The translations under genes were made by a program, and so were the position numbers. A stretch of 64,000 bases of DNA from Aldrovandia affinis (Eukaryota > Chordata > Actinopteri > Notacanthiformes > Halosauridae), in the NCBI GenBank assembly GCA_029706075.1, contig JAINUG010000114.1, forward strand, positions 2,604,001-2,668,000, read 5' to 3'. Shown in pieces: positions 14,972 to 37,150 of this stretch. Each line of letters begins with the position of its first letter. Position 1 is the first letter of the stretch. The notes beneath the pieces are model-generated. The model was given only the letters and a program-made list of their open reading frames with translations, was not told the DNA's origin and did no database searches.

Positions 14972-15053
14972 CAGTGGATCTATACTGTACTACACAATCA
15001 CCTCTAGTGCCCCCAGTGGATCTATACTGTACTACACAATCACCTCTAGTGCC
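14972..15053. repeat. Two-copy 42-bp tandem duplication
   Basis: CAGTGGATCTATACTGTACT and the following bases to CTAGTGCC occur twice in a row with almost no change, in the presumed 3' UTR of the VLIG-type gene. Confidence 0.9.
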
Positions 15054-15196: not shown

Positions 15197-18100
15197 CTAT
15201 TCCTCTTCTTGGTTCTTCATCTTGAAGGATTCCTCCAAGCTCTCCATTGCTTGTTTTTTAGTGATGCTTTTCCAATTAGAAGGCAGGTCAGCAGGCTTTG
15301 CTTCATACTCCTTGGAAAACTTCTCATTAAACCTGGCAAAGACATACTTCCAGTAGTCTGAAGCCTGGATGCTGGTGTCAGGCTGGATGAGCCAGTCAGG
15401 GTAAATGCTCCGGTAGTCCTTGTAAGGATGGAATTTATCCTCTGTTTCCCTTCCTGAATTTTCTCACTGGCAACACTAGAGGAGCACACATTAGTTACTA
15501 ATTTTTGGGAGTCCAAACCTCTCATCATCCCAATCCCTTCAGGACGGTGAATGGAAGTGAAGTGCTCAGTGTGACTCTTACCACCGGCCTCACAAGGGGC
15601 CTTGCAAAAAGGACACTGCCTTCCACAGCCAAACACCCTGTTGAACAGCTCGTTCTGTGGCTTAAAGGGCAGCTTAATCAACTTGGCTCTCACGTCCCCA
15701 CCTCTGTGAAACTCTGCAGTAAAGGTCTGCTCCATTTCATCCACAAACGACATCAGACACCGAGAAAACTCCTCTGGTTTGGCAGTGTTTAAGGCCAAGA
15801 CCACTTCGAGCGCACCTTTGGGGATGACGAGCTCCTTGCGCAGATTGCTACAGATATCCTGAATGAACAGTTGAATACTCCTGTCCGCCTCCCCTTCTCC
15901 TGCTGCTCGTTCACTGACCTTCGCCTGTGCGTTCACAACAGCTTCCTTTATTCTCTTAATCATCACCTTCAGGTGCTTATTCTCCATGTTCCTGAGGCCG
16001 CCGTCTCCCTTTGAGAACTGCTGTACCATTAGCTTGAATATCCAGTCCTGCACAAAGGCTTCATAATGTCATACGTACTTCACATAGTTCTGAAAGTTAT
16101 CATCTGTAAGCAGCTGCTTGAGGACTGAGAACTGGAAGAAGGAACGAGTGCTGAAATCAATGGCTTTCTTCCCGGTCAACATTTCATCCACAAGGTCAGG
16201 GCCCAGAGATTTGGTGACATATTCCCTGACTGCAGGTGCAAGGCAGTGGAAGGGTGAACTCCTCTGCCTTCTTCTGACACTGGTCTCTGTCAAAGAACAG
16301 GTCCTTGAAGTCGGCACAGTACTGGCCCTTGGACTGCTCCAGACACTGCCGGGGATCATTAGCATGGATAAAATCCAAATGCATTTGACGAAACTCTCGT
16401 GCTGCATGTCCACAGATGTGGATCTTCAGGGAGGCCTCAAAGTGAGCACTGGTTTCCAGGTTCCTGTGCCTGTCCAGGTTCTCATCGACTATGTGAAGCA
16501 AGTCTATCATGTATGTGTTGTGGTAATCAGACCTTGCTCTCACTTTTTCATCCACAAACTGCCTACAATGCTCAATGATGTGGTCGACCATCTCTTGCGT
16601 CTTTATTTTCTGCTCATCTCCAAATAATTTGTTCCAAACCTTCTTATACATTTCCTTGGCTTTACTCTTGACTTTGAACAGCTCTTTTCCGCACTCAACC
16701 AAGTTGCCCACATTGGACACCATTTCATGTACCAGACCACCTTCTCTCCCCAAGTTGGTCCTCAGCTGGAGGTAGATATCTTGTTCAATATCTTGTCTGT
16801 CTAGGCCAGAGAAGCAGAGTTCTTTCACAGTCTCATCCCACATCTTTTCAAATTCATCCTCCAACTGTTGATCTGACAAAGGAATTTTACTTTCCCTGCA
16901 TCTCTCAATCAGCTTCAGCACCTTTTGCTCCATTGTGGCTGTGTGATTTTTCTTGATGCTCTCTAATCTGAACATACCCTTTCTAATTTCCACTGCTGCT
17001 TCAATCTTGTCTTTTACTGAGTTCTCCGTCTCCCTCTTGACACTTTTGGCGCTGTTGACAAAGTCCTCTTTGTACTTCTCCACTAAGTGGACATGTCCCT
17101 CCTGCCTCTCGTAGTATTCAGTGAGGTTGTCCAAAAATAGCTTTTCCCCTTTAGCCAGTTCCAGAGTGGCCTCACTTCTCAGTCTGCTCAGCAAGTCAGC
17201 CGCATTGAAGGATGTCTGTGTCTGCGCTACTACTGTGCCAAAGTTTGACACCTTTGTCTCAGCTTGCATCAACCAGGAGTACATGCTCTTCCTGAAGGCC
17301 CACTCCCACTTGTTGAACTCGGTGCAGAGCTTGGCGTAAGCGTCAGCTACAAGGCTGTTGCGGAAACTGAAGATGAAGTTCTCATACTTGACTGCCACCC
17401 ATAAGCTCCTGGTCCACTCAATGAACTCATTGAATGTGTGTGGTGGGTTCTTCCCCGATTTGTGTTCCTTAAACATCTCGATCATGCTCCTCTTGAACAG
17501 ATTCACAGACTCGCTGTAGCCAGCATTGACTGGTGCCATGGGAGGGGTGCCATGCCAGAGCCCAGGTACATACCAGTTGTTTTTCTCTGGATCGTACGCC
17601 ATGACATCAGTAAATTTTCTGTTGTTTCCCCTCTTTTCCATCTTGGCTGCGGCTTGTGTCATCTCATTCAGCTGCTCCAGAAGAATCTTTCTGTCCCTCA
17701 GGTTCTTGTCATGGGCGGAGATGTCTGGCACATTCTGGTGCACAAACTGACAACAGGGTTTTCTCCCCACTTCTTTCATGCGCAGGAAGGCGTGCACCAC
17801 AATCTGCAGGATGTCCTTCATCTCTGTGGAGTTCTCCATGGCAATGTTGATGACTGTGATGTCACTCAGTCCCACCACCAGAGTGGCTAGTTCGTTATCA
17901 TGCTCATAACTGATGTCCAGCTGGGCCAACTCTGGTGACTTCAACCCTTCTGTGTCAATCACCATGATGCAATCACATCCAAGCTGCCTTTTAAAATCCT
18001 CTTTCACTCTGATGAGCAGCATGAAGGCTCCTCTCGTGCACCTGCCACTGCTGACGGCGAACTGGACCCCGAACATGGTGTTGAGGAGGGTGGACTTCCC

Positions 18101-19929
18101 AGTGCTCTGCACCCCCAGCACTGTGACCACCCGGATCTTATACTGTGTCAGATGATGGAGCTCCTTCAGAACCTGTGTCACCCACTGCAGAGGGATGTTG
18201 GATGCATCTCCATCCACCAGCTCCAGGGGAAAGCCCTCCAGCAGCAGCTCGGCACACAGCTGTGGCAGGCGCTGCATCTGCTGTCGAGAGGCGTGACCTT
18301 CGGGGAGCGTGCAGGCTGACTCGTACAGCTGGCCCATTTCCCGCAGGAAGTGCTCCACCCCCAAGGAGCAGCTGGACATCTGCTGGTCCAACTCTGTGAT
18401 GCATGCCTTATTTTCAGAGGAATTCTGACACTCTTCCTTGTACTTCTCCCGGAGGGATGAAAGTTTTTTGCGTGAAAGGTTGTCCAGGTTGATCCTCATC
18501 CACTTGAGGAAAAAGGCGCGCTCCTCTGTGGAGCCTGACATGGCTGAGATAAAACAAGACATGGGCTCAGAGATATCGTGAGCCCTCTGCTGCTCCCTGA
18601 GCTTCTGCTTCTGCTCTGAAAGCTCGCTCTTATACATTTCTATGTTTTTCTCTCCGGCATTTTTCAGCCTGCACTCTTCCTTCTCCAGTTTAGCCAGCTG
18701 TTTCCATGTAGTCCCTTGCAAGGGCAGCATTTTCTCCTTGTACTCTGGTATTTCAGATATTCTTGCTGTGATTGCATCGGCCATCTGCCTTCCACACTGA
18801 CAGGAGACGTAATCTTCATCCACTGGGATCCCAAACTCATGAGCAACAACGGACATCTGTTCAACACTAATTTTGGACAAGTTTCCTGTTAAAAGGTCAC
18901 TGATAGCCAAGTGAAGTTTGTTGACGAATTCTGAATCATTCATCTGTGGACCCTTCATGATGATGTTACTGGGCTGAAGCTGGGACTCAGAAACACATCT
19001 CCTGAAGTCATCCTTCTTGAAGTTCCTGCTCTGTGAATTACTGACCAGGAACAAATGGGCCTGAGAAGTCTGGGAGTACAGCAAATTGCAGTCGGTCCCA
19101 AAATCATCACAAAACACGAATACAGCAGCAGACGTGTGGTAGAGGAAAGAGTACTGGGTTTGAAAGTCGCTGAGGTCCCCACGAAGGTTAGCTATCGCCA
19201 CTGGTTCGGAGAAGATGTCAATGTTTCTGTTCCCACAGGGCAGATACCAGCTGATTTCTACCAGCCCATTGGAAATCTTCCTTGGGGTGTCACCACACAC
19301 CATATTCCTGTGAACAAAGGTGTCGTGGTACTGTTGAGGATTACTGAGAACTTGGTTCAGAATCTGAGACTTGGACAAGCTGCTGCTGCCAAGTCTGACA
19401 AAAGAGACCAATGGGAGATGAGTGAGAACAATGCTCCCCTCCAGAAACCCCCTTGGGTCTGCTAAAGAATGTGGCCTGAACTTTTTCACAATATCTCGCA
19501 TTGCCCACAGCATCAAAGTGCACTGTTGTGCATCCCCTTTGGGAAGCAGCAGGGGCACAGAGAACTGGCACATGGACATTTTCAGGACCATCTCCTGCTG
19601 AAGGAAACCATCTGAGCACAGAAAAACAGCAGTCAGGAGATCCAGGGGGTTAACCTTGTTGCTGTTACCCTGTGGGCTGTCGAGCATGTCCAGAAAGCTG
19701 TCCATGGACTGGGATGTTGTGTCTGGTTTGGTGGAGCACCTCACACTCCTAGCTGTTACGTTCACCATCATCAGCCTCCTCAGGAAACACCATGGCAGGG
19801 ATTTGAGAGACTGGATGCTTTCATCGGTTAAAGTCTCTCCATCGATCTCCAGCACCGTGCTCAGAGTTAGCTTGTTCTTCAGGTACTGTTCCAGTCCCAG
19901 CTCACACACCAGTTCATCCAGGCTGGTTT
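15197..19929 (-). CDS. Giant terminal exon: VLIG-type GTPase module, C-terminal third disrupted
   Basis: Starts after acceptor CAATAACAG in phase 1. It opens with a SAM-like helical segment ([14 protein letters not shown]), then the conserved VLIG N-terminal block ([19 protein letters not shown]). The G domain has P-loop GVQSTGKST at about 18091-18116, a switch-like CTRGAF and G3 DTEGL at about 17944-17960. A long helical region follows. The first frame break is near 16245: frame one ends at 16196 after KKAEEFTL, while the homologous text continues one frame over as [14 protein letters not shown] at 16069-16071 interrupts that second frame (YVKYV stop HYEAFVQDW). A second shift near 15455-15470 leads to a third frame with DKFHPYKDY and DYWKYVF, ending in TAG at 15197-15199. 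A cysteine pair set ([12 protein letters not shown]) sits before that. Confidence 0.88.
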
Positions 19930-22900
19930 CTGTTATTGGGGATGTAAACTGTATTAGTGACAAACAATGCATTTAAAGTCACAATAAACGAATCCACAGC
20001 TGAAATATCGGCCCTTAAATGTTCCAAAACTGTTTCCAATATTAGAAACAATTTATGAAATCTGTGTTTCTTTTATGAATCTCAATGAAATACTTATCAA
20101 CAAAAATATATCACACAAATTACAATACCAATTATATGGGGTGGCAAGTGCAAAATAAAATGCATTAATTTTAATATTGCATTTAACCCAACCCAGCTTT
20201 AACCCCCAAAATGTCACTTTAACCCCTCACCTTTATGAGGTTTTAAATGATAGGTCCAAATATTAAATATGCATTCCTGAAAGTACACACTCTGGTAATT
20301 CCACTCACTTGTGCACACATGCGCTGTGCTGGCCTTGCTGCAGCTGTTGTTTGGAAGCACTATGGTGATGTTGAAAGTGTACTCTATCCCTGGTCTCAGA
20401 TCAGACAGGACAGCAGTGGCAGTCTCAGGTGATCTTATTTCTAACCTGGGCTCTTCTCCCTCACAGCTGTAGATGATGTGGGTCCTATAAGAAATGCCCT
20501 CCATGCTGACTGGTCTCTCCCAGGACAACATCACCGACCTGCTCCTCACATCTCTGGCCTTCACCCTCCCCGGGCCAGACAGCTCTGTTCAACAGAGTAA
20601 GGAGGGAGGGAGACTCATCAGAAGAATTTACATGTCACTCCTCAGCATAACAAATGAATAGTACAAAAATGTATTGCATGATTAATTTGAGGTAAAAAAA
20701 AGAATACTGTGGACTACTCTAAATGAGTTATGAGACATTGTACAAAATGATACAAGCAAAATCTGACAAAAAAAGTTAAACGAGGGGTTAGGTTCTTGTG
20801 CTTAAAAAATATGTGTTGATAATTTTAAAATGGAAGAGCAGCACATAACATACACTGGCCTTGTGTTTCCCCCAGATAAGGCCACTAGCAAACTCATAGC
20901 TACAATGGCTTTTCAGTTTGTCTGGGGAGCAACATGGAGAGGCCAAGGAGGACAACCCTAATGAAGGAGGACGGGGCAGTCGGGGGTCCCAGACATCACC
21001 AACATCATCTTGGCACCAGGTCAGGCCACACTGGTCCAGAACACCCAGAGGAAGCAGTCGGCCTCTGGTATGCTAGCCAGGTACTATGCCACTCCTTTCC
21101 TCAGGTCTATGGGCCTGTGTGGGCTGGACCTGACTGGGCCATATAGCTGGGATCCCCATATGTCTATAGAGCCCTGAGGGATTTCTCCTTCAGGATGGGA
21201 TTGTCCAGGGCTGGGCTGCCCTCTTTGACATATATAAATATTATGTCCTTTTTAAGATCGGGAGAGACTATGATGCTCCCAACCCTGGACCTGAAAACAT
21301 TTTGGAAAAACGCTAAACATAATGCCTTAAATAACAAACAGAAAGACATTTCATGGATGTCTCCCCACTAGATCATTTATGTTTAGACGGCACCTAGCCC
21401 TTATGGAGAGCTGCCCCCACGGATGCACTGATTCAACACAAACACCATCTGTTCTGGGAGTGCTCTGTGGCCAGACGTGTCTGGGGCCTTGTTGTTTCCT
21501 CTGCCTCCCCTAACAGGCTCTCGCTGAGATCCTCCCTGACGGCTGAAAGGGTCCTGTTCAGCCCCCTGAGCGATGCAGGACCCTGGAGCTCTAGCGCCAG
21601 TGGAGGATCATCAACACCGCAAAGCAGGTCCTGTCAGAGACGAGGAACATCCAGGTCCACCAGAAATAAACTGTGGACCTGGACACTCTCCGGAGGATGA
21701 TTCAAAACCTCCCCCAGGACAGCATTCTGGCGGACCTTTCAAAGAATGAGAGAAAGGCGATAGAGAAATGGGGGGTGAGCCACTGGAAAGGACTAGTCAT
21801 ATAGCTCACCCCCCAGAGGCGGCGCGCTCTGGGTGGTCAAGAGCCCGAGTACTGAACCCATTCTTCTTTTTTTTCTGCCTTTTAAAGTTTTTGATTTTGT
21901 ACCCTTTCGGTATGTTTGTTTTACAAATTTTAAATGAATTCTTTTGGATTTTTTTTTTTGTCTACCAGCTTAGTTTGGATTTATTTCTCTTCTCCTAAAG
22001 ACCTATTTCTACCATTGTACATGACTATGTTGAATGTTTGAATGTATTTGTTTTATACCCGTCTTTGTGAAAATGTATGGTATATACATATATACCCTCT
22101 TGTATATACAAATGTACTTGCTTCTGTCTTTTTTTCTTTCAGAAATGTTTTTTTAAATGGAATGAATTGCAGAAAAAAACTAATAAAGCTATTTCAATAG
22201 AGAATAGGCCCAGCCCTAACCCTGTGCCTAACAATAGTGAATATTGAGGCCGCCCATCACCATGCTGATTAGCGCTTGTGTGCAAAATGTTTCTAAAATT
22301 AATGTTTCTAGGGTAAAAAAATAAAATTAATCCTGAATACTGCCAGTGGTGATTTTCTTGAGCTGGAATTAGCAGAGGCTGAATGATCAGAGATTGTTTA
22401 ATCATAAAAAAAAAGAAACAAATCACCCCAAAACATCATGCTTTGGCCGGGAGTTGAACTACACAAAACTGTGCGTATAGTGGCCCATTTTCATCAGCAA
22501 GGTGAGGAAGAGCGAAGACCAGACGTAAAAAATAGCGGGTCTAATTGGCTACCAAATTGGGAGAAAATGGGATAAAATCAGAAACAAATTAAAAAAAATT
22601 AAAAAAAAGAAACAAATCACCCCAAAACATCATGCTTTAAACTACACAAAAGTGCATTTTTCTGAAAGATGACGCTTCAGTTTTCTTGAGCCGCTTCAGT
22701 AATGCACACGTGATGCCCTACATCCACCTCGGGTGGAGATTTCCCCATCCACTCCTGTTTTAATGTGGTTCGGTGAACTGCATCGATGTTGAGCTGATGC
22801 ACACTTTACGCAGTGTAGATTAGCCTTTGCCCCCACCCATAATTGTGTGCCATCTTACCAGAGGAAAAAAAGAATGAATAGTCCAATGATTGCTGCAAGT

Positions 22901-25900
22901 TTGATTATTGGTTCAGTTAAACAAAGGTTTAAAGCTACAAAATGAGATTAGCCTATTTAAAAAGAAAGTGACGGTAATGTAAAGCAACAATTCCAATCAA
23001 TAAAGTATTCAAATCCCTTTGAGTTGGTGTCTTTTGACATCACTTTCAAAGCTACGAACCTTACAGAGCTCCAAACACACTTCCATTCCCAACGAGTTCA
23101 TATTTCTGAGACTCTTCTGCATTTGTGTTTCCCCCCTCACCTGTGTATGCAGTCACTGAAACGCTTTTGCTTTGGCTGCGGTTGTCTCCGATGGTGGCCA
23201 CACTGAAGCGATACTCTCGTCCTGGCCTGAGTCCCGATACGCACACACTCGTCTGGTTCTTCACCTTGAGGCTTTTCTTGTTACCGCCGACGACAGCCCA
23301 GGAGACATTAAAGCTCTGCGGGTGGTCCTCCATCCCCTCCGGGGGCGCCCAGCTCAGAGACACAGAGTCCAACGTCACCGTGTGGACTGTTATCTCTCCT
23401 GGTGGGGGGAGATCTGGGGAAAGAGATGGGATAGTTTTTATTAAATTTACAGCTGAATAGCTGGACACCAGGTCTGGGTCTTAACGGCTGCTTAGACTGA
23501 TTTACTTTAATGTGTTTGGATATTTGGATAACTCAGCTGCAAAAAAAGTTTGAGTAAACCCCCGTCTTTGAGCCGATGGGCTGTGTACTCACTAGTGCGG
23601 GCAGTGGTGCACACAGGGGCACTCTCCGCCCCATTGCTGTCCAGTACGGTGCACACAGAGAATTTGTAGTCGCTCCCGGGTCTCAGGTTGGACAGGACAG
23701 CCAGGTTCTCTTCAGCGGTGATGGACTGACTGGGCCTGCCAGCGTGGTACAATGTTACCCGAAATGTATGCGGGACACTCTGCATGCCAGAGGGTCTTCC
23801 CCAGGTCAGTGTGACTGAAGTGACCTCCAAACAGGTGATGCTTATCCTCTCTGGGGGGCAGGGATCTGGAGGGATGGAGGAGGTGAGACTGGTGTCCGTG
23901 TTGTAAGGAAAAACATCTCGACTCGCACCTGGACAAGCCAGAATTTTGTTTAATTGTGGAGCGCTCCTCCCTGATTTTCAATGGAACCTGACACACATGA
24001 GCTACGGACTGGGAGGTGTATATTGTTTACTGGTATTGATAATACTCTTATTCTACTATTATTATATTATACTTATTCTGTTATTTTCCTATGTGCACAT
24101 TAGAAATGTCCACCCATGGTTGACAGGATTAGAGCACTAGAAGAGTGCACATAAATGCTAAATTCATATTCAATGTGTGTGTACAATATAATTTTACATT
24201 ATACACACACATTATAAATTATATTATATACACACACACTATCAACCCTCAATTCAACTAAAGAAAAAAATATTCCACAAGAAATGTGGATTGATTCAAT
24301 GTTCATTCTATGTCCTCATGTTATTTTCCTGACGTTGATTCAACATCGGTTCAGTGAGTAAATGCTGATGCAGACTGTAGCATTGTCTCTTCTGACGTTC
24401 GTTCAACTTTTGAGTCAATGTCCACTTGCTATCTGCACCCTGGGACACGCATATGAGACACTGAAAATTGGACCCCCTCAAAATCTGCTTTGATATAGAA
24501 ACAATCTGCAACTCTTTCTACAACAACGCTGCCATGCTGTGATGACAGTAATGAAAAGTTCCCCGTTCATAGTTGTTCCCTGTCAGAGTATGTTAGTGGT
24601 GCGGAGTTGTGTGATTTTGCCTGGAGCGGGGAGCGGCTTTTTAGAAAGTCGGAGCGTAGGTGTTCTCTCTCGCTCCAAGATTACTCCATACCGCTTCATC
24701 CCATGAGCATAACACATGCTAACGGCCCATAATGCAATTGTATTTCAACAGCATTCACCACATTGTTAAACAGTGTTAATGGCAACGGCAGTCAGACATG
24801 GATTTCGTCAGATATCATCAGAAAGACAAAGACAACGATCAAAACTACAAATGTTGGTGAGGATTAATGACAGAGAGGGTGAACGTGAGTGTGGGGAGGT
24901 GATTCACACATCGAAAGATTCATTGTGGAATTTAAAAATACGTGTTGAGAAAACATGATGGAGTTTTCCATGCACAAATGGGAAAAAAGTCTAAAGGTGG
25001 GTAATGTAACGTCCCTCTCTCCTGTCCCAAATAAGAATTCAACATTTTGAATCACACTAATGCAGCCCTCGCAATTGTATGGAAATGCGAACATGATTTC
25101 ACATCGTGAATTGAATTTAACTTTTAACGACCAAAAAACACCAACTGAAATTAGATACCTCATCAATTCGCTCTGGCAAAACAGGCTGACGTCGACCACA
25201 GAGGATGGGAAACTCACTCGCAATGATGTTCTCATGCTTCAAGCTTTAGTGACTGTACTCACACCATTGGCCAAACTGACAGATAGTTTACAGAAGGAGC
25301 TAAGAAACCTGGGAATGATTGTACCGGCAGTGGCAGAAATATACGCAGAATGATGTCTGATGTCTCCCATCCACTAGAAACAGCTGCATTCGCAGAAACT
25401 ATAGTCGACAATGTTTCGAGCCGTTATAACAGATTATATGACGACAAGCACATCCTTCTGGCTGCAGTGTTAGACCTACGCTTTAAGGCTGAGTGGATCA
25501 CAAGAGATGAACAGGTTAGTAAGTCTACCCAGTCACCATTTATTATGCTACATTTATTCATCATAAACATATCAACATTTATTGCTATACATCGGCTACT
25601 GTCAAATGTGTCTCGTCATGTAATAGCCTAGGCCAAGTATGATAATGATTAGGAAAAATAAATAAATTGTGTTGTTCTTGTAGGTTTGGGCCAAACAATA
25701 TGAGATCCGGGACCTGTTAGTTAATCAAACAGAACTTTTCAGCAGCACGAATGAACCAGTGACACCACCTGTCCCCGCCACTGCCCATGGGCCAGACAAG
25801 AGCAGTGCATTGAGGGCAAAGAAAGCCAAGTCAATGTTTTGGTCATACGTGATGTCGACAGAGTCTTCAACGCTTGACGTAAAGGGAGAAGTTGAACAAT

Positions 25901-28900
25901 ACCTAATAATGGTGAGAATGAACCCAAACTCAGCAATAGGCCTATAGCCAGTCTAGGTACAAAATATGTTTAGAATAGATTATTCAGTTTTTTCGTTTAT
26001 TAACGTTTTAATTGATTTAATTCGGGGTATATTTCCTGCATGGTGCAAACTGTAGGCTAAACAATAATATACAGTGGGGAAAATAAGTATTTCACCCCCT
26101 GCTGATTTTGTGAGTTTGCCCCCTTACAAAGAAAGGAACGGTCTATAATTTTCATGGTAGGTTCATCTTAACAGTGAGAGACAGAATATTTTTAAAAATC
26201 CCAGAAAATTACATTATATGAATTTTAAACATTTATTTGTGTTTTATTGAGGAAAATAAGTATTTCACCCCCTAGCAAAACATGACTCAGTACTTGGTGG
26301 AGAAACCCTTGTTGGCAAGCACAGCGGTCAGACGTTTCTTGTAGTTGGTCACCAAGTTTGCGCAGATCCCAGGAGGGATTTTGGCCCACTCCTCTTTGCA
26401 GATCCTCTCCAAATCCTTAGAAATCCATTTTCAGTGTCCTGGCTGAGGGAAGGAGGTTCTCACCCAAGATTTCCCGGTACATGGCCCCATTCATCCTCCT
26501 CTCGATCCGGTGAAGTCATCCTGTGCCCTTAGCAGAGAAACAGCCCCAAAGCATAATGTTTCCACCGCCATGCTTGACGGTAGGGATGGTGTTCTTGGGG
26601 TCCAAGGCAGCTTTTTTCTTCCTCCAAACACGGCGAGTCGAGTTGATGCCAAAGAGCTCGATTTTAGTCTCATCTGACCACAGCACTTTCTCCCAAGCCT
26701 CCTCTGAATCATCCATGTGCTCATTGGCAAACTTCAGACGGGCCTGTACATGTGCCTTCTTGAGCAGGGGGACCTTGCGGGCACTACAGGATTTCAATCC
26801 ATTACGGCGTAGTGTGTTACCAATGGTCATCTTGGTGACTGTGGTCCCAGCTGCCTTGAGATCATCAACAAGCTCCAGCCGTGTAGTTCTGGGTTGTTCC
26901 CTCACCTTTCTCATGATCAGGTTCACTCCACGAGGTGAGATCTTGCGTGGAGCCCCAGACCGAGGGAGATTGATGGTCAATTGGAGTTTCTTCCATTTTC
27001 TAATTATCGCACCAACAGTTGACTCCTTCTCACCAAGCTGCTTGCCAATGGTCTTGTAGCCCATTCCAGTCTTGTGCAGGTCTACAATTTTGTCCCTGAT
27101 GTCCTTAGACAATTCTTTGGTCTTGCCCATTGTGGAGAGGTTGGAATCTGATTCATTGATTGATTCTGTGGACAGTTGTCTTTTATACAGGTAACGAGTA
27201 CTTAATTAGGAGTACTAATTAAGTAAGAGGACTAATCTGTGTGCCTCCTGGTCACATAACCGGTCTGTGGGAGCCAGAATTCTTGCTGTTTTGCTAGGGG
27301 GTGAAATACTTATTTTCCTCAATAAAACACAAATAAATGTTTAAAATTCATATAATGTGATTTTCTGGGATTTTTTTAAAATATTCTGTCTCTCACTGTT
27401 AAGATGAACCTACCATGAAATGTATAGACCGACCGTTCCGTTCCTTTCTTTGTAAGGGGGCAAACTCACAAAATCAGCAGGGGGTGAAATACTTATTTTC
27501 CCCACTGTATATAGGCGACTGTTGGTGTTTCAATAAAGCCCCGCACTTTTCTTAAAGTATTATTGTCTATTGTTATTCTTCTCTCATACATCTTCTTAAC
27601 TTAAGTGCCCAGACGTTCAAGATATTAAACAAAAAAAAAAACATGTAAGAATTTTACAACGGAGCCGAAAAGGAGCGCACATTTTGCTATGGAGCGAACA
27701 TGGAGCAGGTCTTCTCTCACAGGGAGCAGGGAGCGAGCGGGGAGCGGGAAATAGAAAACCCGGAGCAGAGTGGGAACGGAGCAATTACAGAATGCTTTGA
27801 GCGGGGAGCGGAAATTCCTGGCGCTCCACTCCGCTCATATACTCTGTTCCCTGTTACAGTGGAAACACAGCCTGGGTGTCCTATACCACAACAGAAATAC
27901 GACACTGGACAAGGGCCTCTTACTCGTGCAGAAGGTTCTGGAGATGGCGCCACTCAGCGTCCCGCATTCCATCGCCGTGGAGACTGTGGCAGTGTATTCA
28001 GTGCCCGGCCGCAGGTTTGACAGGACAGCCTTGCAGCTGGCGGTTGAGATGCGCTGTGGTTCCGATCCAGAGCTGTGGAAGGACACCAGGAAGCGGTGCC
28101 GAATCCGATCCATGCCATGTGGCCCGCCCCAGCTCAGGGTAGCAGACGTCACATCCGTGGAATCCACTGTCAACTTCCCAGGTACAGAGAGTTCTACGTG
28201 CAAAAGGTAGAGGTGTTAGCAGTGGCAGATACATTAGGAAGTAGCATAACCCTGATTACTTGCCTTTTTGTGTATGGGGCTCCCACTCTTACCTGTGCCA
28301 TAAATACCTTACTGCGTGCACACAGTCAACCTTAACGTTATCTCAGAAACATTTCCCTCTACTGCACAATTGTCATCATTAACGTTATCTCAGACACGTT
28401 TCCCTCTACTGTATTACCAGTGCGGGCAGTGATGGAGACAGCACACACTTGATGTCCCTTGTCGTCATGGCTCTTGACAGTGAAACTGTACAGTGCTGCG
28501 GGCTTCAAGTTTGAGATCACGGCCGAGGTGGAGGTGGTTGAGGTGTGTCTCTTCTGGTCCCCTGAGTTGTGGTACGACACCACGTAGGTGAGCACCTCCT
28601 TCACGCCAGTTGGCTTTCTCCAGCTGAGTGAGATGGAGTGGGAAGTGACCGCTTCTACAGTCAAGCCCTCCATCGGCACCGGCTCTAAGAGAACGGAGGG
28701 AATGGTTTTTATTCACTTTTTTTTACCAAGGAACCATAACTGAAGAAATACATGAGATTCTAAAAACAGCCTGGGGACAAAAAAACACAGAAAGTTTTTT
28801 GTTGTTGAGTTTGGCCATTTGTACATCTGTGCCTTTATACAGAGTTAACTATGTGGGCTCTCCAGCTTACTCATTTGATGAGCCGACCCAATAGCACATT

Positions 28901-31900
28901 CCCACTCACTGATTCCCAAACCCAACCCACAATTACAACACGTTTTTCCCTCTCACCTCCCGTCTGCACAAAGAAAAATCCTACCACTTTTACTTCATTT
29001 ATTAAACAATCAGTCAAACTGTGTGCTGTATTGAGTTCCAATTCAATGCAGATGCAATTTTTTCTCACTAAAATGATTAATGCAAGTCACTGCAACACTT
29101 TCATGAATGATTGGGTTGGAAATGTAGTTGCTCAATATGATGCCAATTAATTATTTCACTGCACTTATCTTTCTCAATTTGTGACCTGCCAGTGCGCTAA
29201 ACCTAAAACACTCCTGGGGTTCGTTTTAATTTCAGTGGATTTCAAACTAAACCCAGTTAGCCAGGGTGATACCTCTGTGTTCCTCCGGTACGGTCTCTTC
29301 TGGAGTGTCTTCACCTTTACTGATGTCTTTAGACAAAGTCACGCTCTCTTCTGAGTCCTTGGTTTCCTTCAGTGAAAAGAACACAAGTAGTCTTGTGTTG
29401 GTATATGTTATGATAACAGATGATTAAATATCATTAAATTAAATATTAACTTAAAAAAGCTAGCTGTCAGCAAGAGGAAGTTGGATGTTATTTATTCAAA
29501 TTTGTTTAGGATTTTTCCCCCTTTTCTCACAATTTAGTAGCCAATTGTACCCAATTTTTACCTAACTACTCCCCCGCCCCCTTACTACAAGTGACAAAGA
29601 CGTTGAAACATGTCTGTAACTCCGGTAAACACAGAGCCACTCTTATACGCAGTGAGCTTATGCTGGAGCTTCCCTCCCACCTCCGACTGGAGCAGAGAGC
29701 TAATCGTCGCCCCAGAATGGGACTCCCAGAGGATGAAGCAGAAGTAAGAGGAACTTCAGGGGCCCCCGGATGGCGCAACGGTAAAGGCACTTGCCCGGAG
29801 TCTAGGTTGCCCGGTGCAGCCGGGGTTCAATCCCCTGAAGTTGGATGTTATTTTAGAAATTAGTTGAGAAACTAAGCCCCATGGTAACAGATGATCCCCC
29901 TGGGGTGGACAGCCAATCGCCGTCCCCGAATGGGACTCCCGGCCAGAGGCGGGCCGGCGTAGGGTAGAGGCTACATGCTCCCCCTCCAGAGGATGGTATG
30001 CGATTCGAGATATCATTGGCCTGTTGTTGTTTTTTTCGATTTTACAGTGCGTGTGACCGAACCGTAGCCCTAAACCTAAACCTAATCGTAGCCCTAACCG
30101 TAACACAAACCCTAACCCTAAACCTAACCCCTGAACCTAACAATTACCCGAACTGTCAGTTAAATGTTGAATTTCATGCAAATTTTCATTGAATTTGAAG
30201 TCACGCGTACTTCGCATCTCTGTACTCTGGGGGGCAGCATTTAGCTTCTATCCTAGCGTAGCCAGGGATCTAACCCCGGCTGCAGTGGACAACCTGCACT
30301 CCGGGCGAGTGCCTTTACCATTGTGCCATCCGGGGGCCCCTGAAGTTGGATGTTATTTGAGAAATCTCTTCTTACTTCTGCTTCATCCTCGAGATGCTTA
30401 GAAGCATCTTCAAATCCCTGCAACAAAGCCACACCCCAAAGAGCATCAGCACAAACCCAAAATCCCACCGAGACCCTTTTCAGCCAGATCCAAGCTACAA
30501 GCACGTGCATCACGTCACACTGGAGCTGACAGTAATAAGTGTTAAGAGCGGGAGGCCATAACAAAAGGACTGGAGATGGTCCTGACTATAATCAACTGGC
30601 ATATTGGGTGGAATTTTAGCACTTTTTAAACTTGTAGCTTTGGCTTCCACCTGTGCATTTATGGTGGGTAAATGTTTACTTTAAATTCAGAATTTAATAT
30701 CCTTCATAAATGATCTTGTGAAAACGTAACTAGCTGAATGATGTAGCTGAGACCTGTCAATCAACCAAATGGACCAATCACATACCTCTGAGACAGAACT
30801 CTGGGCGTGTCTGAATGTGAATGTAGGAATGGTTAGGGTTAGTGGTTCTAGGGTTAGTGTAGTGACTCTCACCTCCTCCTCCTCCTCATCTTCCTGTGTT
30901 GTGGACACAGTGTCTTTGCTGTTCTTACTCAAAGCCCGTTCCACATCATCAGAATCCACCAAACCACTCTTTGTGTCTGGCTTGTCTGGGCACGCAGTGA
31001 CGGGTTCTGACTGGGCCAGGCTTGGGGATGTGGTCTCTGGTGTTGCTGCATGGTCCAGACAGGATATGCTGGGTGTTGTCTCTCTCTGATGCTCACGATC
31101 TGCTCCAGGGGCGTTAGGAGATGGACCACGGTTACGTTCACTGATATTACATTCACCTGTGGTTCCTAACCCTTATCATCCACCTGCTTTCATCATCAAG
31201 CCACACCATCACCAGTTCCTTTTTACCTGTGGAAGGTTTGTCACATGTCACATGTTCAGCTGGAGTTGTGTCTCTCTGTTGGTTCTCCGATTCCACACCA
31301 CTCTTCTGTGTTCCGTCCTTCACTGTTTCCTGAAAGCAAGACTGGCTCATTTTACATCTTTTAATCTACCCATTTTATTTTATTCCCAATTTGGAATGTC
31401 TGTGATGCTATGGCCACTTGTGTGCCATGCTGTAATTATGTGCTGCACATAAGCATTTGCATGGCCAGGTTACACTGTGTTTTGTTTTTTATGTCATGAT
31501 GTATAACTAAGCTGCATAAGATCATTAATTACCTGACATGGACAGTAATGAGTTATTGAATTGACATGATGGACCGCCCACCCAATGTCCATCATGAAGC
31601 ATTGGGTGACAACTTATTTTAAATGATGCTATACAGAAATAAAGTTTGATTGACACCTCAAAGCCATCCACAGGTGTCCCAGTGTCGGAGTGGGCGTGGC
31701 TCTTGCTGGCTGCTGTGGGTCCGCTAGACTCGGCGGTCAGGACTGCACAATCACCCCTTCCACACAGTTCAGATCTAATGTGTGCGAAACAAAAACAAAC
31801 AAAGCACTCACAATGTAGGAAGAATCATCTACACAAGATAAACCACTGGCTGTAAGTGTCTTTCCAAAGGCCAGCATGCTGTAGCAGGAGACATGTTAAA

Positions 31901-33593
31901 GTAATGTGTTTGTCAAACCTGCCAGTGTATTTGTTTTTTGAACTGATAAGCATGCATTAAAACCACAAACCAAACAAATAAAAACAATCTTGAAAAACTG
32001 GAAACTGAGTCCTGTGTCCTTTTTAAAAAAAATTTTTCTATTTGTTTCAGATTGTTTCCCATTTTCCTCCACATTTAGTAGCTAATTATACCCTCTATTT
32101 CTTTCGATTCACCCTCTTTCCCACGAACTCGCCACTCGTCACTACGGTGCAAGCTAATTCAGAGGCCGGCAATGATCCGCCTCCTCCGAGACGGAACTCG
32201 CCCACCTACCATCTAGAGACACCCTTCACGGTTCTCGGCGCGCTCTTGCTAGCTCTCCCTCCCCCTTCTCTCTGGGGCAGACAGCCAATTGCTGCCCCCT
32301 AGTGGCACTCCTGGTCAGGGCTAGACTGATGTAGCCAGCGGCACCACTTGGGAGGCCCTAGTCCCTAGCTATGTCATCTTTGACACAGCATCACTAACTC
32401 CAATGTTCAATGCAAACCAAGACAATATTTTGGTAACTGCCAAACACTTGAGTAAATTAGGTTACAAATTTCTAAGTATATTGAAAGCAGGTGCTTCCAC
32501 ATAGGTGTGGTTCCTGAGTTAATTTAGCAATTAACATCTCATCATGCTCAGGGTCAGGGTCATGTATAAAAATGCTGGGCAGGCCCAGATGCCCATCCTT
32601 TTAGCTACCATGGCTAGAAGAGATCTCAGTGACAATGAAAAAGAGGTGATTGTTGCGGGAAGTTTGGCAGGAACTTCAGTGATGATGACTCAGCTTGATG
32701 ATATTTCACGAGGACCAGCATCTAAGGTGATGGAAGTCTGAGGGAAAGACATCAGAAACTAGGGGCAACTGTGGTAGAAAGGGCATACTTCTGGACCGTG
32801 ATGTCCCTGCATTGGTTCGAGATGCAAGGCAAAATAGACAAGCAGCTATGAATCAGTTGACTGCAAATATTAATCCAGGGCAGTGGTTCATACCCTGGTC
32901 CTGGAGGGCCGCAGGGTGTGCAGGTTTTTGTTGTTACTCAGAACTTAATTTGATGAGAATGAAAACGTTCAAATGATGGAACAAATGATGGAATTTCTCA
33001 TGGAAGAATGGTGTAGCGTCACTCCAATAGTGGTCCAGATACTTGTAGAATCTATGCCAAGGCGCACTGAAGCTGTTCTGGTGGCCCAATGTCCTATGAA
33101 GACACTATGTTGGCGTTTCCTATGTTTTGGTAGTTACCTGCATATGATATTTGAGATGTGGCTTGCCTGTTTGAGCTGTGTATAGGACATGTGAGACGTG
33201 GTTTACCTGTGATACGTAGCTGTATTTGAGATGTGCTTTACCTGTGAGAGCTGTATGTGAGATGTGATTTACCTGAAAGAGCTGTATGTGAGATGTGGTT
33301 TACCTGAGACAGCCATATGTGAGATGTGGTTTACCTGAGAGAGATGTATGAGCTGTATGTGAGATGTGGTTTACCTGAAAGAGCTGTATGTGAGATGTGG
33401 TTTACCTGAAAGAGCCATATGTGAGATGTGGTTAACCTGAGAGCTGTATGTGAGATGTGGTTTACCTGTGAGAGCTGTATGTGAGATGTACTTTACCTGT
33501 TTGAGCTGTCCTTGCAGATTGCAGGTTGTAGCCACATTCACTGCAGAACTTGTAATTCTCCTGACATGCCTTTCCACACTCAGGGCACTCCAT
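15197..33593 (-). CDS. Zinc ribbon-FN3x5-VLIG GTPase (interferon-induced very large GTPase-like), 12 coding exons
   Basis: Coding exons, 5' to 3' on minus: 33593-33497, 31742-31657, 31329-31227, 31156-30873, 30417-30376, 29366-29273, 28684-28418, 28193-27924, 23865-23593, 23413-23141, 20584-20309 and 19929-15197. Every junction has GT/AG and the phases agree (1,0,1,0,0,1, then all 1). Predicted order: zinc ribbon (residues 1-30), acidic linker (about 33-235), five FN3 domains (about 236-688), VLIG GTPase module (from about 689; P-loop near 1293, DTEG near 1345). Very large inducible GTPases are cytosolic or nuclear interferon-responsive proteins, related to GVIN1 and URGCP, of unsettled biochemical role. 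Two frameshifts and a TGA interrupt the C-terminal third, so the reading frame as given ends at 16196 (about 1930 residues). Exon choice is my inference from splice sites and phases; RNA was not available. Confidence 0.85.
20309..20584 (-). CDS. FN3 domain exon 5 of the VLIG-type gene
   Basis: 276 nt, phase 1-1, acceptor TTGAACAG, donor GTGAGT. Landmarks: [28 protein letters not shown] and a VCTS end matching the other FN3 exons. It is followed directly by the giant GTPase exon. Confidence 0.85.
20860..21790 (+). mobile_element. L1/Tx1-like LINE ORF2 C-terminal fragment
   Basis: Lies in the intron between FN3 exons 4 and 5, antisense to the gene. A plus-strand frame reads [14 protein letters not shown], the cysteine-containing C-terminal motif of L1/Tx1-type ORF2 proteins. 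Frameshifts separate it from the further part ([14 protein letters not shown] near 21740). No reverse transcriptase remains. Confidence 0.7.
21800..23060. other. Intron of VLIG-type gene with one SINE
   Basis: AT-rich, no exon-like ORF. Contains the SINE at 22443-22605 listed separately. Confidence 0.6.
22443..22605 (+). repeat. Truncated SINE with long flanking duplication
   Basis: Ends in CTAATTGGCTACCAAATTGG, then a GAGAAAATGGGATAAAATC tail, the 3' end of the local tRNA-derived SINE family. About 33 bases (GAAACAAATCACCCCAAAAC and onward to CATGCTTT) occur on both sides, at about 22412 and 22608. Confidence 0.75.
23141..23413 (-). CDS. FN3 domain exon 4 of the VLIG-type gene
   Basis: 273 nt, phase 1-1, acceptor TCCCCAG, donor GTGAGG. 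Landmarks: [20 protein letters not shown], and [18 protein letters not shown]. Confidence 0.87.
23593..23865 (-). CDS. FN3 domain exon 3 of the VLIG-type gene
   Basis: 273 nt, phase 1-1, acceptor CTCCAG, donor GTGAGT. Landmarks: [18 protein letters not shown], and [16 protein letters not shown]. Also reads [13 protein letters not shown] at its start. Confidence 0.87.
24584..27846 (+). mobile_element. hAT element with degraded transposase, carrying a nested Tc1
   Basis: Perfect 8-bp duplication TTCCCTGT flanks it (24576-24583 and 27847-27854). Ends are inverted: CAGAGTATGTTAGTGGTGCG against CGCTCATATACTCTG. Both ends carry clusters of GGAGCGG/CGCTCC subterminal motifs. Plus-strand pieces at 25060-25350, 25350-25530 and 25690-25920 carry hAT signatures ([15 protein letters not shown], then [19 protein letters not shown]), broken by a stop and probably by introns. 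The element sits in the intron between FN3 exons 2 and 3. Confidence 0.93.
26072..27507 (-). mobile_element. Tc1-like transposon nested in the hAT element
   Basis: TA target sites at 26070-26071 and 27508-27509. Terminal repeats of about 205 bp each contain two copies of AAAATAAGTATTTCACCCCC, an IR/DR layout like Sleeping Beauty-type elements. The minus-strand transposase ORF (26516-27130, 204 aa) has the [19 protein letters not shown] start, HTH, GAPRK hinge, [11 protein letters not shown] (first catalytic aspartate) and the [15 protein letters not shown] box. It is then out of frame and internally deleted, and the third catalytic region is lost. Dead copy. Confidence 0.96.
27924..28193 (-). 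CDS. FN3 domain exon 2 of the VLIG-type gene
   Basis: 270 nt, phase 1-1, donor GTAAGA. Landmarks: [17 protein letters not shown], and [16 protein letters not shown]. The right end of an hAT insertion (27846) lies only 77 bases past the donor. Confidence 0.85.
28418..28684 (-). CDS. FN3 domain exon 1 of the VLIG-type gene
   Basis: 267 nt, phase 1-1. FN3 landmarks: SISLSWRKP (strand B tryptophan), [17 protein letters not shown] (the L-x-P-x-x-x-Y turn before strand F) and a C-terminal VSITART strand. Confidence 0.85.
29273..29366 (-). CDS. VLIG-type gene linker exon 6, acidic
   Basis: 94 nt, phase 0 to 1, acceptor CACTGAAG, donor GTATCA. Encodes an acidic stretch ([20 protein letters not shown], then [10 protein letters not shown]). 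It enters the first FN3 exon in phase 1. Confidence 0.65.
29495..30350. repeat. SINE cluster with inverted duplication in a VLIG-type gene intron
   Basis: A minus-oriented SINE tail occupies about 29495-29730. At 29757-29836 and 30255-30340 lie opposed tRNA-like heads (GGGGCCCCCGGATGGC). The phrase GAAGTTGGATGTTATTT occurs three times, at about 29480, 29837 and 30345. A stretch at 30060-30130 is rich in CCCTAAC-type units. Confidence 0.7.
30376..30417 (-). CDS. VLIG-type gene micro-exon 5
   Basis: 42 nt, phase 0 to 0, acceptor TTGTTGCAG, donor GTAAGA; encodes [14 protein letters not shown]. Because it is symmetrical, skipping would keep the frame. Its last bases and donor are copied in inverted orientation at about 29731-29751. 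Confidence 0.65.
30873..31156 (-). CDS. VLIG-type gene linker exon 4, acidic C-terminus
   Basis: 284 nt, phase 1 to 0, acceptor AACCACAG, donor GTGAGA. The frame is fully open. It encodes a polar linker with [16 protein letters not shown] and ends in a run of acidic residues (QEDEEEEE). No folded domain is seen. Confidence 0.7.
31227..31329 (-). CDS. VLIG-type gene linker exon 3
   Basis: 103 nt, phase 0 to 1, acceptor CTTTCAG, donor GTAAAA. Encodes a polar, disordered-looking stretch starting [20 protein letters not shown]. The following intron would be only 70 nt, near the lower limit for fish. Confidence 0.65.
31657..31742 (-). CDS. VLIG-type gene linker exon 2
   Basis: 86 nt, phase 1 to 0, between acceptor TTGTGCAG and donor GTGTCA (a weak donor). 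It encodes a low-complexity stretch rich in S, T, A and H ([18 protein letters not shown]). No domain is recognised. It is placed mainly on phase continuity. Confidence 0.55.
32040..32360 (-). repeat. Full-length tRNA-derived SINE, local family
   Basis: On minus it starts GGCCTCCCAAGTGG (tRNA-like head) and ends in the TTAGTAGC/GCTACTAAAT-type tail. A GGGGCAGACAGCCAATTGC block in the middle is diagnostic, and is also found at 52.9 and 61.3 kb. Confidence 0.85.
32545..33135 (+). mobile_element. Decayed Tc1-like element remnant
   Basis: A plus-strand frame at 32613-32740 ([21 protein letters not shown]) resembles a Tc1 N-terminus before stops. The 3' part at about 33000-33130 (GTAGAATCTATGCCAAGGCG) resembles the Tc1 transposase end. 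The centre is interrupted near 32880-32950 by another repeat (CAGTGGTTCATACCCTGGTC). Confidence 0.7.
33134..33500 (-). repeat. Minisatellite built from the exon 1 splice donor of the VLIG-type gene
   Basis: About eleven units of 28-40 bases, mostly around 30. On minus each reads (C)AG|GTAAAC followed by CACATCTCACATACAGCTC, so each unit contains a donor-like CAG|GTAAAC. The unit nearest the gene is the real exon 1 donor. At the far end (about 33161-33180) a unit is again preceded by GCTCAAACAG, the last ten bases of exon 1. Confidence 0.9.
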
Positions 33594-33603
33594 TTTCCTG
33601 CAT
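33497..33603 (-). CDS. VLIG-type gene exon with start codon: zinc ribbon
   Basis: The acceptor TTTTTGCTCAG precedes 33603 and the main ATG is at 33593. The first 21 residues contain CPEC and CSECG (CxxC-x12-CxxC), a treble-clef or zinc-ribbon signature. The exon ends ...CTCAAACAG before donor GTAAAG at 33496, in phase 1. An earlier out-of-frame ATG at 33603 opens a 7-codon reading frame that overlaps the main start. The donor is the first unit of a minisatellite array (33134-33500). Confidence 0.8.
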
Positions 33604-34294: not shown

Positions 34295-34750
34295 TTGGCG
34301 TACGCACGTTTCCTTGTGGCAATGTTGGAGTACTTCAGGTGTTCGCGGTCTCGTCTCTTCTCTGTCCTGACCCCTCGCTGGTGGAACTACCTTCCGCAAT
34401 CGGTCAGGACCACGGAATCACTTGCGATTTCCGCAAGAGACTCAAAACCCACCTTTTCAGATTCCACTACCACTGAATTCTGTACATCTAGCTAATTGTC
34501 ATCACCATTGCCTACTTGCTCAACACTATATAGGCTACCCCTGCTTACTCCATTAAAACAAAACAAAAATGTACTAACCTTTTCCTTCCCAGTGTTACAG
34601 GTATGGTACGCAGCTGCCTGTAATGATGTCTATTGCTTTATTACTGCACTGGTCTCTTGCACGTACTACCATGTTCCTACCATGTATTAATGTAGCCTAT
34701 ACATTGTAAGTTGCTCTGGATAAGAGCGTCTGCTAAATGCTTAAAATGTA
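34295..34750 (+). mobile_element. L2-like LINE 3' end
   Basis: A plus-strand frame ends with a LTPRWWNYLPQSVRTTES-type segment and KPTFSDSTTTEF, like L2/Maui-type ORF2 ends. It is followed by a GTAAGTTGCTCTGGATAAG tail with AGCGTCTGCTAAATG. A second piece of the same 3' region lies at 44295-44370. Confidence 0.75.
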
Positions 34751-34916: not shown

Positions 34917-36160
34917 GATTCAACACATTGCTTAGGCTATACGTAATGGTTTGTACAATAGTTATTAATAAATTAAAACAACATAAGCTAGGCTACTTGT
35001 GGAAAACAAAACAAAAACACACATTGGTTTTCCAAAACTACCCCTATTAGCATAATTGACACATCCTTGACATTTATTTAATACATATTATAGAACACAC
35101 GTGTAAAACATTTCGGTCAATCTATAGGCTATAAAATGTCCAATAATGCAGTGGTTTGCAAGAGGAAGAATGGCAGCATTGTCACTTCTCGAAGATATCG
35201 CTAACCGCGCAATAAGACGGAACGAGTTATTAGAGATTTTGACCTCGCTAAAATTATTTTTGCTGTTCTCGATAAAAAAAATATTTTTCTTGCAGCTCGC
35301 CATTATCAAGTAGCGGATTTGTGTTTTGATTCGAGTTCCTTTATATGCTAATTATATTAATTAGGGGGCGTTTACAAGGTGGAGATCTAAAACCATTCAG
35401 GCACAATTTCAAGATCATTGTGATTTAGAGATTTTCTTGGCGTAGTTCAGTTTTTTGGTACGTTCAGTTTCTCTGGATCACACTTACGCACATTTCAGAA
35501 ATGATCTTAGATCAAATGTAGGATGGTTTCTACGCAACTTTTTATAAATGAGGCCCCTGGTCTTCACCTGTGTGCCAAACTGTCTCCGTGGCAGTTCCCT
35601 TTCAATGCCTTACAACACTGACACCAATCAGTCGAATCAAAATGATGGCAATAATGGGTTTAAATAAAACTGAGGAAAAAACGCCGGCTTCACGTTGCGA
35701 CAACGTAATATTATTAGCTAGAAGGTTGTTTCAAGTGTTATGGACTGGAACATACGATTGACTACAGTCCACTAGACGACAGGACCATTCACGCTAAAGT
35801 ATGCATAAAACAAAGCTACTCTTCTAGACTAACGAACGGCAGAACATGCTCCAGTAGGCTATTTATCAAAACGCATACAGTACAAAGTATTCACAGGAAT
35901 AGGCTACCTATTTTCATTGAGAGGCAGATCCTGTCTTAGTTTAGTGTGGTGCGCTGTTCTTATTGTCAATAATGCACTTTTCCGGTCAAAAATATTTATA
36001 GAATTGTATGTGAAAACGTTATTTAATATTGTAATGGATAATACATTACATATAGATGTACCTTGTACCCTCTTTGTTATGGAATATTAGTTTTGTATCA
36101 TTGTTGTCTACAAGCCTATAAACTAATGCTACCGTTCGATGTCAATTTACCACCACTTAC

Positions 36161-36200
36161 CTGAGAAATGAATCCACGCACTCAACGTTTTTTTCCCGCA
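36161..36200 (-). promoter_or_regulatory. Candidate non-coding first exon and promoter of the VLIG-type gene
   Basis: On minus, TTTCTCAG is followed by a consensus donor GTAAGTGG at 36160. Just upstream are a TATTTAAC TATA-like box near 36225 and a GCTTTC/GAAAGC element (36205-36214) one base off the ISRE core TTTCNNTTTC. Spliced to 33603 it would give a short 5' UTR. All of this is inference. Confidence 0.35.
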
Positions 36201-36418
36201 AAAGAAGAAAGCGAATTGTGAATAGTTAAATACAGTATAGGAAAAATCTGTTTTCACTGACTACAACCCGCGCCCGTTCTGCCTTGTAGGTGAACTTCTG
36301 TCTGTTTTAGGCAGCTCTTGTGCAAATGCCTAACAGGAATAGTAAACCGAAAGTATTAATGTTGGTTTCGTTTCACCGAAATAAGACGGGGGCAGAGGGG
36401 AACGCGGATACAATTTAT

Positions 36419-36660
36419 ACACTCAGTGGCCACTTTATTAGGTACAACGTTCCTGGAAACATTCCTCAGAGATTCTGGTCCGTGTTGACATGATAGCATC
36501 ACGCGGTTGCTGCAGATTTGTCCGCTGTACATTAATGTTGCGAATCTCCCGTTCCACCACATCCCAAAGGTGCTCTATTGAACTGAGATCTGGTGACTGT
36601 GGAGGCCATTGGAGTACACAGAACTAATTGTCATGTTCGTGGAACCAGCTTGAGATGACG
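36419..36660 (-). mobile_element. Tc1-like element 3' fragment
   Basis: CACTCAGTGGCCACTTTATT is a well-known fish Tc1-type end. On minus the text encodes SPDLSSIEHLWDVVE, the third acidic region of a Tc1 transposase, and RISEECF near the C-terminus. Confidence 0.85.
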
Positions 36661-37150
36661 TGTGCTTTGTGACATGCTGCATTATCCTCAGAGCCGGCCC
36701 TGACCAATTTGGTGCCCTAGGCAAGATTTTAGCTGGTGCCCCTTGCATCGCAGCCAAACTACTGCATAGCTTTATGTCTGAGACTTTCTTTTTATTTTAG
36801 AAACAAAAAAATCACAGAATTACAACAATATTAAAGATACCAGTGCTAAAAGCACTAAACATAACAATAATTATAAATTTAAATAAGGGTATTGCACTAA
36901 ACTGAAAATATTTATGGTTTGTGCAGCACACTTACAAGAAAATGTTTATTTCTCAAAATGATGTCGGTTATTCCCCAAACACCTGACTAGTCTTTCCCAC
37001 TTTCCCTACGAAAATTTAAGTAAGTAAGTAAGTAACTGGCGTTAACTCTAGCTATTTATTAAATTAGCCAACGTTATTATCGTCCAAAGTAAGCTAGCTA
37101 ACAATGGAGGACAGCTTGGCTCTGTCCAACAGTAACTACTATGCAATAAA

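Follow-up and report, generated by a model that had tools for sequence, protein, structure and literature searches.

The window analysed here is a stretch of 64,000 nucleotides from the genome of the halosaur Aldrovandia affinis (C158:2604001-2668000), and the genome searched with it comprises 1.22 Gb in 2,576 contigs. On its minus strand the window carries a large gene, which with high confidence belongs to a subfamily of the VLIG/GVIN GTPases marked by FN3 domains, a zinc ribbon and an acidic linker. The limits of the gene, 15197-33603 in window positions, run from the final stop codon of the family to the first coding exon.

Exon chain and domains of the gene

The coding part is made of 11 exons on the minus strand: one for the zinc ribbon, four for the acidic linker, five for FN3 domains and one VLIG exon of 4.7 kb. 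A scripted check of borders and phases found AG at every acceptor and GT at every internal donor, with compatible phases at all ten junctions. The segment 36161..36400, on the same strand, probably contains a 5' non-coding exon with its flanks; it is followed by a CAG/GTAAGT donor starting at 36160, and it is 86% identical in a second copy of the gene (copy B, locus L031), where the donor is retained.

The first coding exon, Zn (33497..33603, with the start codon ATG at 33593), encodes a C4 zinc ribbon recognized by the Pfam model Zn_Ribbon_1 (1.9e-6, 27.9 bits, cut-off 25). Its 3' border lies in a 31-bp tandem repeat (33189..33509, minus strand) in which ten motifs, CAGGTAA or CAGGTTA, resemble splice donors. 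Its length differs between copies, with 10 units in the window, 24 and about 36 in copies A and B, and 11 and 4 after the two zinc exons of contig C1930. An effect of these motifs on splicing is possible.

The linker is encoded by L1 (31227..31322, phase 1-1), L2 (30873..31156, acidic and ending in a glutamate run), L3 (30376..30417) and L4 (29273..29366), and contains 45 acidic and 18 basic residues among 172. Between the window copy and copies A, B and C1930-1, the residues are kept at 94-97% in L1, 86-87% in L2 and 90-94% in L4. The 42-nt L3 is the least certain exon of the gene and is present in the same three copies.

The five FN3 exons are all of class 1-1, and each exceeds the Pfam fn3 cut-off of 25 bits: FN1 at 28418..28684 (1.3e-13, 51.4 bits), FN2 at 27924..28193 (3.2e-9, 37.3 bits), the third at 23593..23865 (1.1e-10, 41.9 bits), FN4 at 23141..23413 (2.8e-13, 50.3 bits) and FN5, which adjoins the VLIG exon, at 20309..20584 (5.2e-9, 36.6 bits). 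The intron between the second and the third of them holds a fragment of a Tc1/Sleeping Beauty-type transposase (26519..27205, minus strand; HTH_SB 2.4e-27, HTH_Tnp_Tc3_2 8.5e-24), which is outside the gene product.

The giant VLIG exon (15197..19929; 4,733 nt) begins with about 100 residues without a Pfam match, followed by the URGCP domain (residues 107-402 of the window copy's open frame; 5.6e-114, 380.9 bits, cut-off 27), the URGCP_GTPase domain (2.7e-202, 672.2 bits, cut-off 55) and a C-terminal region. Both GTPase motifs, the P-loop GVQSTGKS and DTEG, are present and stand ahead of the lesions described below. A sequence-only reading of this stretch had proposed a CxxC/CxxC zinc ribbon, an acidic linker, five FN3 domains and a VLIG module, and had suggested a Pfam scan. 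The scan places Zn_Ribbon_1, all five fn3 matches, URGCP and URGCP_GTPase above their curated cut-offs, and the four linker exons are bounded by AG and GT and join in phase, which bears out each of these modules.

Copies of the gene in the same genome

The URGCP_GTPase domain has 35 matches in the genome, fragments counted. Giant exons were examined in 11 copies and short upstream stretches in five more; upstream sequence was obtained for eight copies other than that of the window, partly limited by contig ends or neighbouring genes. An FN5-type exon lies directly before the giant exon in all eight paralogues first fetched. A genome search with FN5, in which the best candidates were scored, gave at least 36 matches, of which at least 13, the window exon included, are close (81-100% identity). 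Each of the 13 close exons listed is followed on the same strand by a URGCP_GTPase domain 1,561-1,629 bp downstream. Among the weaker matches listed, 22 of 23 are on VLIG-bearing contigs and one, on C520, is not. A search with the zinc exon gave seven matches, of which six share their contig with a VLIG domain: one on C158, three on C1952 (one of which is short of a few residues) and two on C1930. The seventh, a weak match on C1800 (E 0.022), was rejected as a family copy and belongs to a different gene, which we take to be VRK3-like.

Copy A, on C1952, contains all ten upstream exons (Zn, L1-L4, FN1-FN5) in the same order and with AG/GT borders; its L2 is 6 bases longer at the end, inside the glutamate run. 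In copy B, Zn, L1-L4 and FN5 are accompanied by a damaged FN1 and two more damaged or divergent FN3 exons. C1930-1 has Zn, L1-L4, one FN3 exon and the giant exon, and C1930-2 has L1 and a partial L2, then one FN3 exon and a giant exon that is open. The paralogue loci contain 43 matches to the FN3 profile, and the complete ones, 28 in number, are all of class 1-1 with AG and GT borders. The FN3 exons number five in the window copy, five, four and one in C1952a, b and c, three in C1850, seven and three in C2032a and b, three and nine in C1865a and b, and one in each C1930 copy. These numbers are lower bounds with damaged exons included. They were counted over some 11 to 22 kb of upstream sequence where this was obtained, and over a shorter reach in C1952c and the C1930 copies, which have another gene close by.

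The composite gene of zinc ribbon, linker, FN3 row and VLIG module claimed from the window's letters is thus found again, module by module, through a multi-copy subfamily of the genome. A chance match of phases was considered and rejected, since the exon set recurs in copy A, the 13 listed close FN5 exons all precede a VLIG domain, and all 11 copies examined retain the AG acceptor of the giant exon.

FN5 exits in phase 1 without a stop codon, and the giant exon starts 379 bases further on with a phase-1 acceptor. An in-frame ATG is nevertheless found at 19972, in the intron and 43 bases ahead of the giant exon, and could let the GTPase exon start on its own, a finding that the sequence-only reading had named as one that would refute its proposal. 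The locus would then consist of an upstream zinc/FN3 gene and a neighbouring VLIG gene, duplicated together, and co-duplication by itself would hold the two side by side. This ATG is kept in six of the 11 copies, so that a second start is possible in some of them as far as sequence goes. In the other five it is replaced by another codon, including C1930-2 with its fully open giant exon, while the acceptor is kept in every copy and matches the phase in which FN5 ends. Moreover, in C1930-1 only one FN3 exon stands between the linker and the giant exon, and a separate upstream gene would have to be very small. A division into two genes is therefore very improbable, and a start of its own for the GTPase exon is not favoured.

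The giant exons of most of the subfamily are about 89-92% identical to that of the window copy. The identity falls to 61-63% for the main C2144 pieces, to 49% for C1759 and to 28-29% for the classic VLIGs. Five of these other VLIGs were followed upstream over short reaches: 3.2 kb for C1759, 3.4 and 3.3 kb for two C2144 copies, and 1.8 and 2.2 kb for the classic copies on C1952 and C1930. Within those reaches FN3 was matched in part in one C2144 copy and not at all in the other four. As only one of the five more distant or classic copies showed FN3, and that in part, the FN3 row is taken as a trait of the subfamily. A classic VLIG (L030, C1952:169000-178999), which shares its contig with copies that bear FN3 exons, is a 2,326-residue open exon with URGCP at residues 955-1237. 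Comparison with residues 107-402 in the window copy indicates that the FN3 row occupies the place of the long N-terminal part of the classic VLIG.

Several other features accompany these loci. On the plus strand of C1952:327229-348978, a zinc exon with some residues missing, together with nine FN3 matches, heads for the contig end, and the genome search gave no URGCP_GTPase match past them. Near-identical open frames reading CDICTERKxRAVKFCVTCAASYCETHI, presumably TRIM B-box-like, lie upstream of VLIG copies at L010, L017 and L022, and these clusters may therefore alternate between genes of TRIM type and VLIG genes. Several paralogues (L009, L014, L015, L018 and L027) carry a G-rich coding minisatellite of variable length (GEGEVKVGEGAA-like units) within the C-terminal part of their giant exons, and the window copy has almost none of it. 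Encoded relatives were also sought in collections of viral contigs and genome contigs, and none was found there.

Lesions and constraint in the window copy

Alignment with eight paralogues reveals three lesions in the window copy's giant exon, all within 15452..16254 (minus strand). The first is a frame break near 16254, caused by a one-base difference within a C run; the second is a substitution that creates a stop, TGA 16071-16069 in the family frame; and the third is a frame break at 15464-15452, where several bases are changed outside any run. The continuous reading frame stops at TGA 16198-16196 after 1,901 residues, and the giant exon is open over its first 1,224 codons. In the open paralogue L012 (contig C1952) the giant exon has 1,578 codons, 354 of them past the site of the first break. 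The part lost from the window copy amounts to about 350 family residues and includes a cysteine/histidine-rich motif around CPFC. An uninterrupted phase-compatible chain had been claimed for the locus, and this holds for the phases and borders of all ten junctions and fails in the last 1.06 kb of the giant exon, where the frame is broken; the window copy hence does not encode the whole protein. Judged from its sequence, it is a C-terminally disabled member of the family, whose product would have at most 1,901 residues, with the zinc ribbon, the FN3 domains and the GTPase and without the C-terminal region.

Some or all of the lesions could be errors of sequencing or assembly in a gene that is intact. 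The first break, a one-base difference in a C run, would be typical of this, short runs are likewise the site of several lesions in other copies, and multi-copy genes are generally hard to polish in assemblies. However, the second lesion is a substitution and the third a multi-base change outside a run, and the same assembly contains, besides the open 2,326-residue VLIG exon, two giant exons of the FN3-bearing subfamily that are open throughout. Such errors are an improbable explanation for the window copy.

The giant exon is open from acceptor to family stop in two of the 11 copies examined (C1952c and C1930-2), and the lesions are not the same from one copy to another. Together with the varying number of FN3 exons, this reads as birth-and-death evolution, although for some copies an assembly error may account for indels that fall in short runs.

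Divergence between copies was compared in the zinc, linker and FN3 exons taken together and in non-coding sequence from their introns, with gaps and the tandem repeat 33189-33496 omitted. Against copy A, 108 of 1,972 exon sites differ (5.5%) and 527 of 6,058 non-coding sites (8.7%; Fisher 2e-6), and the zinc and linker exons differ at 28 of 613 sites (4.6%, p 2e-4). Against C1930-1, the exons differ at 54 of 886 sites and the non-coding sequence at 359 of 3,756 (p 8e-4), and the zinc and linker exons at 31 of 610 (p 2e-4). Against copy B the zinc and linker exons differ at 31 of 613 sites (p 6e-4).

Substitutions private to the window copy were counted in the giant exon on both sides of the first lesion. 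In the first 1,235 codons, 830 of which were usable after filtering, there are 26 non-synonymous and 27 synonymous changes, a ratio of 0.32 of neutral (binomial p 5e-5). After the lesion, with 223 of 333 codons usable, there are 15 non-synonymous changes, nine synonymous ones and one stop, or 0.53 of neutral (p 0.15). The two ratios do not differ significantly (Fisher p 0.33). From these comparisons, the window gene was under clear constraint for much of its life, and its 5' part may or may not have stayed so after truncation.

These data bear on the possibility that the window copy is simply a pseudogene in decay, which has inherited its architecture from intact relatives and yields no functional product. 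Two frame breaks and a stop within the last 1.06 kb are in line with it, decay is common in the family (nine of the 11 giant exons examined are broken somewhere), and the private changes after the lesion are indistinguishable from neutral. Conversely, the ten upstream exons all have AG/GT borders and open frames and are followed by the long open part of the giant exon, and the private ratio ahead of the lesion is the lowest among nine copies scored, yet does not differ significantly from that after it. A stop within the last exon lets a transcript escape nonsense-mediated decay, as would be the case for the stop of the window copy. On balance, decay without a functional product has slightly better than an even chance of being right for this copy.

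The explanation that accounts best for the whole, and which is likely to hold, is that of an FN3-bearing VLIG subfamily of ray-finned fish under birth-and-death evolution, of which the window copy would be a C-terminally disabled member. Besides the scarcity of FN3 matches upstream of the five other VLIGs and the intronic ATG, several observations weigh against it. Of the four copies traced upstream to the zinc exon, none is intact throughout: in addition to the window copy, the giant exon of copy A is out of frame at two or more places, copy B shows the damaged FN1 and two one-base losses, and C1930-1 is broken at least once, in a coding minisatellite. Against copy B the difference between exons (75 of 1,043 sites) and non-coding sequence (367 of 4,052) has a p of 0.056, the damaged FN1 being counted. 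The divergence of L3 from copies A, B and C1930-1 is 12-14%, faster than that of the introns. Finally, the ratio of non-synonymous to synonymous rates against copy A, 0.60 in the FN3 exons and 0.66 in the zinc and linker exons, corresponds to weak constraint.

Other features lie in the rest of the window. An ALG10 gene is located near its low end (1641-2741, plus strand, Pfam scan). A perfect two-copy 42-bp tandem repeat at 14972-15053 lies just past the 3' end of the VLIG gene, and upstream of the gene stand the two arms of an inverted repeat, each about 640 bp long and 99.5% identical to the other (37151-37791 / 38228-38871). Two 3' elements of UnaL2 long interspersed elements are found at 55787-55840 and 34693-34746, the former adjoined by a transfer RNA-like match at 55704-55761. 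The UnaL2 elements and the Sleeping Beauty-type transposase, like the size of the genome, are in keeping with a fish origin.

Proposed working and comparison with known systems

Exon shuffling would have placed the zinc-ribbon start, the acidic linker and the class 1-1 FN3 exons ahead of a VLIG exon, and the composite unit would then have multiplied by duplication, with the number of FN3 exons drifting from 1 to 9 per copy. Such drift is permitted because class 1-1 exons can be gained, lost or skipped without a change of frame. The protein would act as a cytosolic GTPase that self-associates on binding GTP, while the FN3 row and the zinc ribbon, carried on the flexible acidic linker, would reach out and bind a target or cofactor. 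Up to the stop of the window copy no strongly hydrophobic stretch is found (the highest 19-residue Kyte-Doolittle mean is 1.57), and because of this and the zinc-ribbon start the protein is probably cytosolic; it is also probably GVIN1-like. The likeliest outcome would be the coating or marking of intracellular microbes in the manner of human GVIN1, which is put forward tentatively. It counts against this proposal that the coat mechanism is drawn by analogy only and that the cytosolic location is deduced from there being no 19-residue stretch of strong hydrophobicity. As for an interferon-type element upstream of the first exon, the region 35900-37000 contains no GAAANNGAAA core on either strand; it has two AANNGAAA sites per strand.

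A bolder and rather unlikely picture is that of giant cytosolic immune GTPases in diversification, in which 1 to 9 skippable FN3 exons and an RNF213-like zinc cap would form a recognition arm. The copies would then provide a repertoire of coats differing in reach or target, and the truncated ones would regulate those of full length. The added zinc and FN3 modules, present in many copies and with a variable number of FN3 exons, offer natural variants for asking whether an N-terminal arm sets the choice of target in VLIG/GVIN proteins.

No description of this architecture was found in searches of the open-licence PMC literature, subscription papers and vertebrate protein databases being outside that scope, and a database annotation of FN3 together with VLIG in fish may exist. 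Symmetrical class 1-1 FN3 exons are known from the arrays of fibronectin, tenascin, receptor phosphatases and titin, and the best PDB matches of the window's FN3 domains are fibronectin and titin. Unlike these, the window protein opens with a zinc ribbon and lacks any stretch of strong hydrophobicity. The order of URGCP followed by URGCP_GTPase is shared with URGCP, whose Pfam models include neither FN3 nor zinc ribbon, and the likeness noted here is one of domain order.

RNF213 is a giant E3 ligase that acts on and marks intracellular pathogens. The window protein resembles it in the pattern of a C4 zinc ribbon from residue 1, MECPxCG...KFCSECGxxLxSA. The zinc exon shares 18 of 29 residues with residues 1-30 of the solved RNF213 chain (E 0.0037, a short motif), its best full-length match among solved proteins; 2i13 and 1mey have better total E-values through repeated matches of 9 to 12 residues. 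The 29-residue match may be due to chance or convergence. In contrast to RNF213, the zinc, FN3 and VLIG exons give no AAA+ or RING match against Pfam, the linker exons not having been scanned individually, and no RNF213 start is among the matches of the genome search with the zinc exon.

Among the closest known systems is that of VLIG/GVIN, represented by human GVIN1 and mouse VLIG-1, with which the window gene shares URGCP and URGCP_GTPase, the P-loop, the DxxG motif and a GTPase domain within one giant coding exon (4,733 nt here and 1,578 open codons in L012). The intact C-terminal region of VLIG/GVIN proteins is absent from the window copy. In mammals, the whole coding region of a VLIG gene is contained in one exon. 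The sequence-only reading had also described this form, as essentially a single giant coding exon with no FN3 repeats, and it is consistent with the cloning of human GVIN1 from genomic DNA, as reported in the main text of PMC11974893. According to the same text, human GVIN1 is inducible by interferon-gamma and coats cytosolic bacteria, and its dimer has been modelled via the LG domains; the word “fibronectin” was not found in that main text (PMC11974893). The differences are upstream of the shared part. The classic L030 has about 950 residues ahead of URGCP, as opposed to about 100 in the giant exon of the window, where the zinc ribbon, the acidic linker and the FN3 row come in addition. Indeed, the ten more exons that stand upstream here, absent from the one-exon mammalian form, are shared by paralogues, so that the gene represents a variant rather than the classic form of VLIG.

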